The notes under the pieces were generated by a model. The model made no database searches. It saw only the letters and a program-made list of their open reading frames with translations, and had not been told where the DNA came from. A program made the translations under genes and the position numbers. 64,000 nt of DNA. Source: Allostella sp. ATCC 35155. Its GTDB lineage: Bacteria; Pseudomonadota; Alphaproteobacteria; ATCC43930; Allostellaceae. The stretch spans positions 4,026,001 through 4,090,000 of the forward strand of contig AP019701.1 in the NCBI GenBank assembly GCA_006738865.1, in the 5' to 3' direction. This document shows positions 11,498 to 18,541 of this stretch, one piece after another (position 1 is the stretch's first letter; each line of letters starts with the position of its first letter).

Positions 11498-11594
11498 CGT
11501 GGATCACTCCCTGGGGGCAAGGGGGCACCGGGGGCGCCCCGTCGCCCGCCAGTATGCACCGGACAGGCCCCCTGCCTTCAATCGCCCCCTGCCT

Positions 11595-12686
11595 TCAATC
11601 ACCGCCGGCCCGCTTGCGCGCAGGCGTCTGCGGACGGCGCTCCTGCTCCAGGAGGGCCGTCTTGCGCTCCACCCCCCAACGGTAGCCCGAAACCGCGCCG
11701 TCGCCGCGCACGACGCGGTGACACGGCACGACCAGGGCCGCAGGATTGGTCGCGCAGGCGCGCGCCACGGCTCGGACCGCAGCCGGCTGGCCGATGCGCC
11801 GCGCGACTTCGCCGTAACTGGCCGTCTCGCCCGGGGGGATGCGCTGGAGTTCCTGCCAGACCCGCCGCTGGAAGGCGGTGCCGCGCAGGTCGAGGGGCAG
11901 TTCCGGATGCGGCAGGCGGCCGTCGAGATAGGCGACGACCGAGCCCAGGATCTCCGCCAGCGCCGGTGCGTCGTCCACGAGGTCGGCGCCCGGGAACTCG
12001 GCCGCCAGGACGCGGGCGAGGTCGCCTGGGTCGTCCCCCAGCGCAACGAAGCAGACGCCGCGCTCGGTCGCCGCCGCCAGCACCTGGCCCAGGGGGCCTT
12101 GCGCCACGGCATAGGCGATGCGCTCGCCCGTGCCGCCGCGGCGATAGCGGCCCGGCGTCATCCCGAGTTCGCGCGCGGCCCGCTCGTAGACGCGGCTCGA
12201 CGATCCGTAGCCGGCCCCGAAGGCCGCGCCCGCGATCCCCTCCCCGGCCCGCAGATCCTCGCGGAACCGCCGGATGCGCACGACGTCGCCGTACTCCTTG
12301 GGCGAGAGGCCGAGAAACTGGCGCATCAACCGCTGCAGATGGAAGGGGCTGACGGCAAGCTCCGCCCCGAGTTCCGAGAGGCCGGGCGGCGCGTCCTCGG
12401 CCGCCTCGATCAGACGGCAGGCGCGGCGCACGAGCGCGACCCGCTCGTCGCCGCTTTCCGCCGCCTCGGGGCGGCAGCGGCGGCACGGCCGCAGGCCGGC
12501 GGCGCGCGCCGCCTCCGGGATGGCGAAAAAGGCGACGTTCTCGCGCCGCGGGCGCCGGCTCGGGCAGCCGGGCCGGCAGAACACGCCGGTCGTGCGCACG
12601 CCATAGACGAACCGGCCGGCGGCCGACGCGTCGCGCGCCACGACCGCCGCCCAGCAGTCCGTCTCGTCCAGTCTCATCGCTTCCAT
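11595..12686 (-). CDS. ada: Ada: bifunctional DNA-alkylation response regulator and methyltransferase
   Basis: A 363-residue, full-length Ada. Domains in order: zinc/methyl-phosphotriester acceptor domain with Cys 37, 41, 68 and 71 (CRPGC, RPCRRC); an AraC-type helix-turn-helix region (FHLQRLMRQFLGLSPKEY, about 115-195); and the O6-methylguanine transferase domain with the active-site PCHRV, Cys 322. Methylation of the N-terminal zinc Cys turns Ada into an activator of its own gene and others. All key residues are present. A start at Met4 is also possible. No alkB or alkA neighbour is seen; the gene stands alone between convergent and co-oriented genes. Confidence 0.93.
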   Translation of the reverse strand: MEAMRLDETDCWAAVVARDASAAGRFVYGVRTTGVFCRPGCPSRRPRRENVAFFAIPEAARAAGLRPCRRCRPEAAESGDERVALVRRACRLIEAAEDAPPGLSELGAELAVSPFHLQRLMRQFLGLSPKEYGDVVRIRRFREDLRAGEGIAGAAFGAGYGSSSRVYERAARELGMTPGRYRRGGTGERIAYAVAQGPLGQVLAAATERGVCFVALGDDPGDLARVLAAEFPGADLVDDAPALAEILGSVVAYLDGRLPHPELPLDLRGTAFQRRVWQELQRIPPGETASYGEVARRIGQPAAVRAVARACATNPAALVVPCHRVVRGDGAVSGYRWGVERKTALLEQERRPQTPARKRAGGD

Positions 12687-13501: not shown

Positions 13502-14917
13502 CTACTCGACCCAGGCGATGCGCAGCGTGTTGGTCGAGCCGGGCGTTCCGAAGGGAACCCCCGCGGTGATGACGAGCCGGTCGCCGGACCTGGCGACCCC
13601 CTCCTGCACCGCGATCCGGCGGGACCGTTCCACCATGTCGGTGAAGTTGCGGATGTCCCGCGTCAGGACCCAGTGCACTCCCCACAACACGGCCAGCCGG
13701 CGCGCGGTTCCGAGGCTGGCGGTGAGGCCGAGGATGGGTACGGTCGGCCGCTCCCGCGCCGCCCGCATCGTGGTCGAGCCGGAGGTCGTAAAGGTGCATA
13801 TGGCGGCCGCCCCGATCGTGTGCGCGACCTGCGCGGCGGCGGCGGTGATGGCATCGGCCGCGGTGTGCTCCGGCGGCGAATGCTCGGCGTCCATGATCGG
13901 GCGATAGAGGGGATCCTGCTCCACCCGGGCGATGATCCGGTCCATGATCCCGACCGCCTCCATGGGATAGGAGCCGGCCGCCGTCTCCGCCGACAGCATC
14001 ACCGCGTCGGCCCCGTCATAGACCGCCGTCGCCACGTCGGAGGCCTCGGCCCGTGTCGGTGCCGGCGAATGGACCATGGATTCGAGCATCTGCGTGGCGA
14101 CCACCACCGGCTTGCCCGCTGCCCGGCAGGCGCGCACGATGCGCTTCTGCAGGCCGGGCACGTCCTCGGGCGGCATCTCGACACCGAGATCACCGCGCGC
14201 CACCATCATGGCGTCGGTCAGGTCGAGAATCTCCTGCAGCCGCTCGATCGCCTGCGGCTTCTCCAGCTTGACCATCACCGCCGCGCGGCCTTCGATCAGC
14301 TTGCGCGCCTCGGCCACGTCCTCCGGCCGCTGTACGAACGACAGCGCGATCCAGTCCGCGCCCAGTTCCAGGCCGAAATTGAGGTCGCGCCGATCCTTGT
14401 CGGTCAGTGCCGACACCGGCAGCACGGCATTTGGGACGTTGACGCCCTTGCGGTTGCTGAGGGGTCCGCCGGTGATCACCCGCGTGTCGGCGGCCTTGCC
14501 GCGCATCTTCTCGACGCGCAGCCGGATCCGCCCGTCGTCGAGCAGCAGGTCGGTGCCCGGCGACATCGCCTCGAAGATCTCCGGATGCGGCAGCGGTGCG
14601 CGCGTCTCGTCGCCCGGCCGGTCGGTGAGGTCGAGGCGGAAGGCCTGCCCGGCCTTCAGCATGACCTTGCCGTCGGCGAAGGTGCCGACGCGCAGTTTCG
14701 GGCCCTGCAGGTCGACGAGGATCCCGATCGGTCGCTTCCGCTCCTGCTCGATGGCGCGGATGATGTCGTAGCGGACCCGGTGCTCCTCATGGGTGCCGTG
14801 GCTGAAATTGAGGCGAAACACGTCGACGCCGGCATCGAACAGGGCGCCGATGACCTCCACCGAGCCGCTCGCCGGGCCCAGCGTCGCCACGATCTTGGTG
14901 CTGCGAGTGCGGCGCAT
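13502..14917 (-). CDS. pyk: Pyruvate kinase
   Basis: A 471-residue cytosolic enzyme converting phosphoenolpyruvate and ADP to pyruvate and ATP. Visible motifs: TKIVATLGPAS at the N terminus, FRLNFSHGTHEEH, MVKLEKPQAIERL, and MVARGDLGVEMPPEDVP near the active site, followed by VVATQMLESM. The ATG at 14917 has GGGAGG 5 bases ahead; a longer frame would add 14 unconserved residues. It lies 47 bases downstream of glycerate 2-kinase on the same strand, an arrangement that feeds glycerate through 2-phosphoglycerate and PEP to pyruvate. Confidence 0.95.
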   Translation of the reverse strand: MRRTRSTKIVATLGPASGSVEVIGALFDAGVDVFRLNFSHGTHEEHRVRYDIIRAIEQERKRPIGILVDLQGPKLRVGTFADGKVMLKAGQAFRLDLTDRPGDETRAPLPHPEIFEAMSPGTDLLLDDGRIRLRVEKMRGKAADTRVITGGPLSNRKGVNVPNAVLPVSALTDKDRRDLNFGLELGADWIALSFVQRPEDVAEARKLIEGRAAVMVKLEKPQAIERLQEILDLTDAMMVARGDLGVEMPPEDVPGLQKRIVRACRAAGKPVVVATQMLESMVHSPAPTRAEASDVATAVYDGADAVMLSAETAAGSYPMEAVGIMDRIIARVEQDPLYRPIMDAEHSPPEHTAADAITAAAAQVAHTIGAAAICTFTTSGSTTMRAARERPTVPILGLTASLGTARRLAVLWGVHWVLTRDIRNFTDMVERSRRIAVQEGVARSGDRLVITAGVPFGTPGSTNTLRIAWVE

Positions 14918-14964
14918 GGTTCCTCCCACTTCCGGTTCCGAGGGACGTCGACGATACACGCCGC

Positions 14965-16242
<1,278 letters not shown>

Positions 16243-16270
16243 GCGGTCGGATCTCTCATGCGGCGGGGCG

Positions 16271-16354
16271 GGGCGTTCGGGCCAGGGCGTTCGGGCCAGG
16301 GCGTTCGGGTCAGGGCGTTCGGGTCAGGGCGTTCGGGCCAGGGCGTTCGGGCCA
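16271..16354. repeat. Six tandem copies of a 14 bp unit
   Basis: The unit GGGCGTTCGGGCCA is repeated head to tail six times without gaps; copies 3 and 4 carry T instead of C at position 12 (GGGTCA), the others are identical. The array begins 28 bases upstream of the glycerate kinase start and ends 2 bases before the stop of the EamA gene (both minus strand). Being intergenic, it could change copy number by slippage and shift promoter or mRNA-leader spacing. Confidence 0.9.
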
Positions 16355-16356
16355 GA

Positions 16357-17343
16357 CTATGGGCGCCGCGCCGGATCGGCAATCGGCGGTCGCGGCGGGC
16401 GCAGTCCCCGCGCCGCCACCGCGATGCCGGCCAGCACCGCGACCCCGCCCAGCCATTGCGGCCAGCCCAGCCCCTCGCCGAGCCACATCCAGGCGAACAG
16501 CGCCGCCAAGACCGGTTCGAGCAGCAGGGCCAGCGCCGAGAAGCCGGCCGGCAGATGCGCCAGGGCGTAGGCGATGAGACCCTGCCCCAGGGCGTGCGAG
16601 AGGAGGCCGAGCGCCACCAGGACCGCCCAGCCGGCCAGCGTCGCCGGCCAGAAACCCTCGCCCGACAGCCATGCGACCGGCAGCAGCACCGCCGCCGTCG
16701 CGAGCGAGGTCCACAGCATGATGCCGGCGGCGCCGAGCCGCGCCCGCAGGCAGCGCACCGCCAGGAGATAACTCGAGAGGCAGACCGCCGTCGCGATCCC
16801 CAGCAGGTCGCCGAGCGCCCGGTCGCCGCCGATCCGCAGACTCTCGCCGAGCAGGCAGAAGGCGCCGGCGAAGGCCAGCGCGAGGCCGGAGAGGAAGCGC
16901 ATCCCCGGGCGCTCGCCGAACATCAGCCAGGCGCCGGCGGCGACGAACACCGGCGCGAAGTTGGCAAAGAGCGTGGCGTTGGCGACGCTGGTGAAGCGGA
17001 TCGACCAGTGCCAGAAGGCAAGATCGCCGGCGAAGAAGAGGCCCGCGGCCGCGAGCCGCCAGCGGTCGGCCGGCCGGATCGCCCGCGGCGCCCGCCCGGC
17101 CCCCGCGACCAGGCCCGGTCCCGCTACCAGAACCGCCAGGAAGGGCACGGCGAGGGCCGCGCGCCAGAAGGCGGTGACGGTCGGCCCGACCTCCGAGATC
17201 CGCACCAGGATCGGCGACAGGGCGATGCAGGCCGCGCCGACCGCCAGCGCCAGCAGCGCGAGGCGCAGGGCGGAGGGGGAGCCGGAGATGAGCGGGGGGC
17301 GAGGCACGGGACGCCCGATCTTATAGCCCAATGGCGGGGGCAT
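16357..17343 (-). CDS. EamA/DMT-superfamily transporter
   Basis: A 328-residue membrane protein with about ten hydrophobic helices forming two EamA repeats (LALLALAVGAACIALSPILV, FWRAALAVPFLAVLVAG, LGLLSHALGQGLIAYALAHL, LLLEPVLAALFAWMWLGEGL). It is a presumed exporter of small metabolites; substrate unknown. The first 27 residues are polar and Pro-rich, so initiation slightly further in is possible. It lies upstream of glycerate kinase, separated by the 14 bp tandem array, and is divergent from the N-formylglutamate amidohydrolase gene across 67 bases. Confidence 0.82.
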   Translation of the reverse strand: MPPPLGYKIGRPVPRPPLISGSPSALRLALLALAVGAACIALSPILVRISEVGPTVTAFWRAALAVPFLAVLVAGPGLVAGAGRAPRAIRPADRWRLAAAGLFFAGDLAFWHWSIRFTSVANATLFANFAPVFVAAGAWLMFGERPGMRFLSGLALAFAGAFCLLGESLRIGGDRALGDLLGIATAVCLSSYLLAVRCLRARLGAAGIMLWTSLATAAVLLPVAWLSGEGFWPATLAGWAVLVALGLLSHALGQGLIAYALAHLPAGFSALALLLEPVLAALFAWMWLGEGLGWPQWLGGVAVLAGIAVAARGLRPPRPPIADPARRP

Positions 17344-17410
17344 TCACGAACCGAACGGCGACGCCTATAACACGCCGCCGCCCGGACCATTCCTTGCTTT
17401 CCGTCCCGCC

Positions 17411-18541
17411 ATGAACCTGCCCTCGCCGCCTTCTGCCACCGTCCCCCTGCTCGGCCCCGACGATCCGCCCGCCTGGCGGGCCGTCAACGCCGACGGACGG
17501 GCGCCGGTGCTGCTGGTCTGCGACCATGCCGGCAACCGGATTCCGGCCGCGCTCGGCACCCTCGGCCTGCCGCCAGGGGAACTCGAACGCCATATCGCCT
17601 GGGATATCGGTGCCGCCGCGGTGACGGAGCATCTCGCGACGCTGCTCGACGCGCCGGCGCTGCTGTCGGGCTATTCGCGCCTCGTCCTCGACTGCAACCG
17701 GCATCCGGGCGGCGTCGGCTCGATCCCCGCAGCCAGCGACGGCATCGCGGTTCCCGGAAACGCCAACCTCTCCGAAACCGACCGGCTCGCGCGGGTGGAG
17801 GCGTTGTTCGCGCCCTACCAGGCGGCGATCGCCGCCCGCCTCGCCGCCTTCGCGGCCGCGGCGACCGTCCCGGCCCTGATCTCGATCCACAGCTTCACGC
17901 CGGCGATGAACGGCCGGCAGCGGCCCTGGCAAATCGGCATCCTGTGGGACGAGGATCCCAGGGTGGCGCAGCCCCTGCTGGCCGCGCTCGCCGCCGAATC
18001 CGGGATCACCGTCGGGGACAACGAACCCTATTCGGCGCGCGACCCGCACGGCTATACAACGGACGTGCACGGGACGCGGGCCGGGCTGCCGCATGTCCTG
18101 ATCGAGATCCGGCAAGATCTGATCGCCGATGCGGCCGGGCAGCGCGAATGGGCGGGGCGGATCGCGGCGGCCTTGAAACCGATCCTCGTCGACCCGAAGC
18201 TCTACGCCGTCCGGAAACCCCGAAGCAGCAGAGGGAGCGAAGCAATGGACGATACGACCCGCACCGAGCTGGAGGCCGCGGCCTTCCGCCGGCTGGTGCA
18301 GCATCTGCGCGAACGCACGGACGTGCAGAACATCGACCTGATGAATCTCGCCGGATTCTGCCGCAACTGCCTGTCGAAATGGTATCGGGCGGCGGCCGAG
18401 GAGCGCGGCGTGGCGATCACCGACCCCGCCGCGCGCGAGGTCGTCTACGGCATGCCCTACGACGAATGGAAGTCGAAGCACCAGAAGGAGGCCAGCGTGG
18501 AGCAGAAGCAGGCGTTCGACCAGGCGCACAAGGCCCACTGA
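17411..18541 (+). CDS. N-formylglutamate amidohydrolase fused in frame to DUF1244
   Basis: One uninterrupted 376-codon frame. Residues 1-270 form an N-formylglutamate amidohydrolase (LLVCDHAGNRIPAALGTLG, YSRLVLDCNRHPG, LISIHSFTPAMNG), a hydrolase that releases formate from N-formyl-glutamate, the last step of one histidine pathway. Residues 279-376 are a complete DUF1244 domain. The junction (AVRKPRSSRGSEAMDD) is a basic linker, and Met279 has a good ribosome site in the linker codons. The protein may therefore be made as a fusion, as two proteins, or both. No hut genes flank it, so a link with histidine breakdown is not evident. Confidence 0.8.
   Translation: MNLPSPPSATVPLLGPDDPPAWRAVNADGRAPVLLVCDHAGNRIPAALGTLGLPPGELERHIAWDIGAAAVTEHLATLLDAPALLSGYSRLVLDCNRHPGGVGSIPAASDGIAVPGNANLSETDRLARVEALFAPYQAAIAARLAAFAAAATVPALISIHSFTPAMNGRQRPWQIGILWDEDPRVAQPLLAALAAESGITVGDNEPYSARDPHGYTTDVHGTRAGLPHVLIEIRQDLIADAAGQREWAGRIAAALKPILVDPKLYAVRKPRSSRGSEAMDDTTRTELEAAAFRRLVQHLRERTDVQNIDLMNLAGFCRNCLSKWYRAAAEERGVAITDPAAREVVYGMPYDEWKSKHQKEASVEQKQAFDQAHKAH
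18245..18541 (+). CDS. DUF1244 protein (possible separate product from an internal start)
   Basis: A 98-residue product starting at the internal ATG at 18245, which is preceded by GAGGGAGCGAAGCA, a convincing Shine-Dalgarno. The sequence has the DUF1244 core NLAGFCRNCLSKWYRAA with two cysteines and the YGMPYDEWKSKHQ ending. In related bacteria DUF1244 is a stand-alone small protein of about this length and unknown function. Here no stop separates it from the upstream amidohydrolase frame. The 3' end overlaps the gapR start by one base (TGATG). Confidence 0.65.
   Translation: MDDTTRTELEAAAFRRLVQHLRERTDVQNIDLMNLAGFCRNCLSKWYRAAAEERGVAITDPAAREVVYGMPYDEWKSKHQKEASVEQKQAFDQAHKAH

Follow-up and report, generated by a model that had tools for sequence, protein, structure and literature searches.

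The tandem array described here precedes the glycerate kinase (GK) gene of Stella sp. ATCC 35155, a star-shaped environmental bacterium. The genome carrying it is a single contig of 5,339,096 bases, and the window is the whole stretch of 64,000 nucleotides that was analysed. The genes and features of the locus are listed below, in window coordinates.

13502 to 14917, minus strand: pyruvate kinase (PK), from Pfam, the gene call and a conserved start region
14949 to 14962, minus strand: block GGCGTGTATCGTCG upstream of PK, read by eye
14965 to 16242, minus strand: GK, with DUF4147 and MOFRL domains, from Pfam
16243 to 16347, minus strand: predicted GK 5′ leader, inferred from promoter position with a start ∼7 nt past the −10 box
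16265 to 16351, plus strand (the GK template strand): chain of 13 GGG runs with gaps of at most 7 nt, from a G-quadruplex motif search
16271 to 16354, minus strand: tandem array of six 14 bp units, from TRF and direct reading of the sequence
16354 to 16359, minus strand: candidate −10 box TAGTCT (TAGTGT in the other three Stella genomes)
16357 to 17343, minus strand: EamA-family transporter, from Pfam, with an alternative start at 17331 by the gene caller
16377 to 16382, minus strand: candidate −35 box TTGCCG of GK, inside the EamA 3′ end and kept in all four Stella genomes

On the sense (minus) strand, units 1, 2, 5 and 6 of the array read TGGCCCGAACGCCC and units 3 and 4 read TGACCCGAACGCCC. 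The two types, A and B, differ by one C/T change and follow each other without gaps in the order AABBAA, which would most simply be explained by duplication of units after a point change. Six gapless 14 bp copies, with copies 3 and 4 differing by one base, had been described in a sequence-only reading of this DNA, and the sequence confirms that description. TRF places the array at 16271–16355 with a period of 14, 6.1 copies, 97% matches, no indels and a score of 156. The runner-up array in the 64 kb window scores 68, and the maximum from 40 simulated windows, which were generated by a first-order Markov model to match the window in length and dinucleotide composition, is 77. The array thus consists of head-to-tail units within the ∼10–100 bp range of minisatellite/VNTR loci, repeated above the level of chance. 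The ATCC 35155 assembly was made from Nanopore and 2 × 300 Illumina reads (PMC6687932). Because 300 nt reads can span 84 bp, a wrong copy number in the assembled array is unlikely.

The rotated unit CCCGAACGCCCTGR has five exact matches in the genome, all within the array, and a whole-genome search found no exact copy outside it. A dispersed-repeat family was considered and ruled out, as the exact unit occurs solely in the array. The string CCCTGGCCCGA is common to the array and to G000:C1:3842152, G000 being the genome of the array. No published description of the array was found in a literature search that reached few subscription papers, and literature on a tandem repeat together with intergenic glycerate kinase gave one match, about MRSA.

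The EamA and GK genes are both on the minus strand and are separated by 114 nt, from the EamA stop codon TAG at 16357–16359 to the GK start at 16242. The array had been said to fill this gap. It is indeed intergenic and lies in the predicted GK leader, but it covers only 84 of the 114 nt and leaves 28 nt before the GK start codon. A six-codon frame, ATG AGA GAT CCG ACC GCA TGA, is found at 16239–16259, and its stop overlaps the GK start codon; no corresponding ATG was seen by eye in the leader of S. humosa. At 17411–18541, N-formylglutamate amidohydrolase and DUF1244 domains are found in one open reading frame. In S. humosa, two minus-strand genes lie beside EamA, 22 nt apart by our own gene calls. 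Elsewhere in the window, at 11567–11600, there are two exact 17 bp copies of GCCCCCTGCCTTCAATC, located at and just past the point where a gene for an Ada-type regulator (11595–12686, minus strand) ends.

A candidate GK promoter emerged from comparison of relatives; a consensus promoter scan of 15900–17500, with a threshold of 9 of 12 consensus bases, found none. The pair TTGCCG-N17-TAGT(G/C)T overlaps the EamA end in four of four Stella genomes, and its spacer is constant at 17 nt. The TAG of the −10 box doubles as the EamA stop codon in three of the four, ATCC 35155 included. In the remaining genome, a MAG (G002), the EamA frame is shifted and reads TTG CCG ... CCT AGT GTC, with a stop 16 nt later, and the hexamers and their spacing are unchanged despite the other reading frame. 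Since G002 reads the same bases in another frame, the promoter-like pair is not explained by protein constraint, which argues for a constraint that acts on DNA rather than protein.

A looser form of the pair, TTG..G-N16-18-TA...T, is present upstream of GK at 13 of 28 loci among the matches listed (four of four Stella and nine of 24 others) and missing from 15. First-order simulated sequences give an expectation of 0.14 loci, an enrichment that is descriptive and post hoc, the motif having been defined after these sequences were viewed. The 28 loci are those with enough upstream DNA in a sample of 30, of 48 genomes with a match; L018 and L025 were excluded for short upstream DNA, and L001 was excluded as a duplicate of L002. 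Seven loci without the TTG..G/TA...T pair (L013, L015, L017, L022, L023, L026 and L028) share, by eye, CGCTCGATATGAAATG followed by TTGGCAA(G/T)ACGGAA or a variant of it. This suggests that the CGCTCGATATGAAATG block may be a different GK promoter or operator in those relatives.

As a test that depends less on GK itself, the promoter pattern was also counted over 2.0 Mb of the ATCC 35155 genome. Non-coding DNA upstream of starts (113 kb) has 41 copies of TTG-N3-N17-TA...T, and coding sense DNA (1.83 Mb) has two. The count peaks at a spacing of 17, and enrichment is 333-fold at spacing 17 and 187-fold at spacing 18. With a control AT...A as the −10 box, the corresponding values are 7-fold and 11-fold. 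With GTT in place of TTG, enrichment is 32-fold for a spacing of 17 and 122-fold for one of 18; at the latter spacing the GTT control can overlap the GTTG of N17 sites. The strict Stella form occurs three times in 2.0 Mb, and the two copies other than that at GK are followed by a start on the same strand after 35 and 40 nt.

The first base of the array is the last base of the −10 box, and the array is otherwise downstream of both hexamers. From this geometry the GK transcript would start at ∼16347, inside the first unit, and the array would constitute most of a predicted leader of ∼105 nt. EamA transcripts may also run through into GK, and the array would then be an intercistronic spacer. A change in copy number had been proposed to alter spacing. 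Because the array overlaps the −10 box by a single base, its last, it cannot alter the distance between the two hexamers, and with the conserved pair sitting upstream of the array a change of promoter spacing is not supported. Switching through leader hairpins fares no better. Folding of the gap's sense RNA is weaker than that of its own shuffles (z +2.5) and, with the GK start included, about equal to it (z +0.13); a hairpin switch is disfavoured since the sense leader folds no better than shuffles. A strong fold of plus-strand RNA (z −3.98) was set aside, as it needs an antisense RNA and relies on G-U pairs; with DNA parameters it is no stronger than shuffles, and it was given no weight. A search of 15800–17800 against Rfam showed no family near gathering score, the two weak matches having E values of 0.12 and 0.15. 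No intrinsic terminator was found in the EamA–GK gap, and one candidate lies inside EamA at 17040–17057.

Joint switching of GK and PK had also been envisaged. At PK, coding score favours the ATG at 14917 over a GTG at 14959 as the start codon. GGCGTGTATCGTC stands before the PK start in four of four Stella genomes, by eye, and it is possible that this block is a separate candidate promoter for PK. The claim of joint switching is weak because PK has this conserved upstream block of its own.

The distance from the −10 end to the GK ATG is 111 nt in ATCC 35155, 60 nt in S. humosa, 44 nt in S. vacuolata and 21 nt in G002, from which the leader would be ∼105 nt in ATCC 35155 versus roughly 15–55 nt in the three sister genomes. 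The S. humosa EamA–GK gap has 2.8 copies of a different 14 bp unit, GCCCGAAGCCTGCT. No array is present in this gap in S. vacuolata, and none is seen by reading in G002, where the gap is too short for one. The expansion of the array within a lineage, as had been suggested, is upheld by these comparisons. Copy number therefore differs between related genomes, but between species only, one genome per species having been compared. The leader arrays of ATCC 35155 and S. humosa share short strings, e.g. AACGCCC and CCCG, which suggests that both may have grown from a similar ancestral leader sequence. In S. vacuolata, a 14 bp array of 3.4 copies of CCTGATATTGCCGG at 1337965–1338011 (L172:965–1011) spans the GK stop codon into the GK–PK gap; this gap has no array in ATCC 35155 or S. 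humosa. Sixteen array rows were compared across 400 kb stretches; three had both flanking genes adjacent in another stretch, and these are all in the EamA–GK and GK–PK gaps; one row lay at an edge.

Short-period arrays are found elsewhere in the ATCC 35155 genome. A 2.0 Mb sample has 11 non-coding arrays with periods of 13–18 bp in 170 kb, and nine coding arrays with periods of 15, 18 and 24 in 1.83 Mb, as counted with one set of thresholds and with coding status from our own gene calls. The sample is non-random, in that 400 kb were chosen around the window and contain four of the 11 non-coding arrays. By TRF score the GK array ranks second among the 11, and an array at 4189105–4189191 is slightly longer. 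The top-scoring array, G000:C1:2837174-2837300 (L245:7174-7300), has 9.1 copies of the 14 bp unit GCCATCGCCGGTTG with 96% matches. The two genes around it are co-directional and 433 nt apart, and a promoter-like TTGCTC-N18-TAATAT follows the array. A match to TTG-N3-N16-18-TA...T is found near two of the 11 non-coding arrays and is lacking at nine. The GK array is downstream of its promoter match and the 2837174 array is upstream of its own. Only the GK array thus follows a matched promoter as a leader, and its position is therefore not explained by the general class of arrays.

From what is directly observed, i.e. the array, its absence or other form in sister genomes and a promoter-like pair at constant spacing, the locus is probably an ordinary lineage-specific minisatellite and not a demonstrated genetic switch. 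We consider it fairly likely that the array is a near-neutral, lineage-specific minisatellite in the GK leader, just past a conserved promoter of sigma-70 type at the overlapping end of EamA. According to this proposal, tandem duplication would have enlarged the minisatellite inside the GK 5′ leader in the ATCC 35155 lineage, and the conserved promoter at the EamA end would drive GK from the first array unit. The expansion would be tolerated and close to neutral because the promoter and the start-codon context are intact, with at most a modest graded effect via leader length. Against this proposal stand the lack of the looser promoter pair at 15 of the 28 loci, the possible reading of GK from EamA, and a position that the general class of arrays leaves unexplained. 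In addition, both the chain of G runs and the abundance of C on the sense strand stand out in this genome and could reflect function, and the presence of different 14 bp arrays in the same gap of two Stella species could reflect selection.

Rho or a G-quadruplex might confer graded control. In the former case, the sense RNA would be a tunable, rut-like loading site that attains a sufficient length (84 nt) only with about six copies, and copy number would set how much transcription arrives at GK, whether this begins at the GK promoter or comes by read-through from EamA. The array does provide at least 70–80 nt of unstructured RNA with more C than G. Its sense RNA has a C/G of 1.91, and an equal bias is found in only 0.30% of all 84 nt windows on both strands and in 0.92% of those at least half non-coding (0.8 Mb examined). 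The weak folding of the sense gap strand and a Rho encoded in the genome are also in keeping with Rho loading. RhoTermPredict requires, according to the accessible part of its description, 78 nt in which C exceeds G and recurs at regular intervals (PMC6407284). The spaced-C pattern is, however, uninformative in a GC-rich genome: the 118 nt gap region has 19 rut-like starts, but the background of the genome is already 85–106 per kb. Moreover, the six other co-directional intergenic arrays show no consistent sense C>G (C/G counts 45/48, 18/19, 13/19, 6/25, 16/12 and 15/9), and the sister genomes manage without such an array. In one study, from the portion available, rut strength is tied to in vivo termination only for weaker terminators (PMC9160355). 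A Rho-loading leader is therefore regarded as unlikely. Slightly less likely again is a combination in which 14 bp arrays were born repeatedly and independently between a fixed promoter and the start codon in Stella and the array acts as a length-graded rheostat, where only about six units would suffice to load Rho or hold several quadruplexes, so that ATCC 35155 would make less GK than its sister species. For a quadruplex element as such, the GGG chain of the template strand would stall polymerase or replication, lower GK and destabilize the array. Its 13 runs, with gaps of at most 7 nt, exceed the motif of at least four G3 runs with loops of 1–7 nt. In 2.0 Mb, both strands, this is the only chain with at least 12 runs and one of two with at least eight, and the competing DNA hairpin on the template strand is no stronger than shuffles (z +1.16). 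Yet a long chain follows automatically when a unit with two GGG runs is repeated, and the motif is not conserved, the S. humosa unit having one GGG per 14 bp and loops of 11 nt; a quadruplex function is thus improbable.

Perhaps a shade more improbable is a phase-variable contingency locus, in which gain and loss of units would switch GK and PK on and off. Near-identical units favour slippage and leader length does vary between species, but promoter spacing is unaffected, PK has its own upstream block, and GK is a metabolic enzyme. Such enzymes are not typical contingency genes. On/off switching of GK by the array is not supported. There is very little likelihood that the array is a tandem operator, each unit binding a regulator of glycerate metabolism. 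Regularly repeated 14 bp sites do adjoin the promoter, and CCCGAACGCCCTGR with up to two mismatches has 268 genome matches versus 119 for a reversed control, an excess that coding composition may explain. However, the unit lacks inverted-repeat symmetry, the leaders of the sister genomes do not conserve it, no exact copy exists elsewhere in the genome, and a period of 14 bp does not keep helical phase.

The near-neutral minisatellite, if it is such, would make the GK array a product of ordinary genome turnover. The locus offers a clean test of whether a minisatellite in a leader tunes expression or is neutral filler, as the sister species, whose leaders carry another short array or no array, are natural controls for an effect of the array. 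More broadly, the data suggest that intergenic arrays of 13–18 bp units are a recurrent source of length change in regulatory regions of Stella.

Spacer-repeat contingency loci include Haemophilus hifA/hifB and Neisseria nadA, where the repeats act by altering either the spacing of the promoter or binding upstream of it. The GK array resembles these loci in having repeats near a promoter; it differs in that promoter spacing is fixed, no repeat being located between the −35 and −10 boxes or replacing them. Rho-dependent leader terminators have, according to the accessible parts of two reports, C-rich, G-poor, unstructured RNA of at least 70–80 nt (PMC6407284, PMC9160355). The GK leader is similar in composition only, and its spaced-C property is shared by much of the genome.

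Promoter tandem repeats of Mycobacterium tuberculosis are found at dop, lpdA-glpD2 and cysG-efpA. In the part of the report available, copy number is proposed to tune expression and varies within populations, and the repeats either consist of promoter DNA (dop) or immediately precede leaderless promoters (PMC12817950). As with these repeats, the GK array adjoins a metabolic gene. It is unlike them, as far as that part of the report describes them, in being downstream of the −35/−10 pair: its unit neither contains nor directly precedes a promoter, and the single TTG...TA...T match at the array is upstream of the repeats except for its last base. The likeness to bacterial intergenic VNTR/minisatellite loci is close: these also have short, near-identical head-to-tail units that vary between relatives, and the genome that carries the GK array holds a whole class of intergenic arrays. 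Relative to such loci, the GK array is distinguished by variation that is known only between species, not within one, and by its place between a promoter and a start codon.
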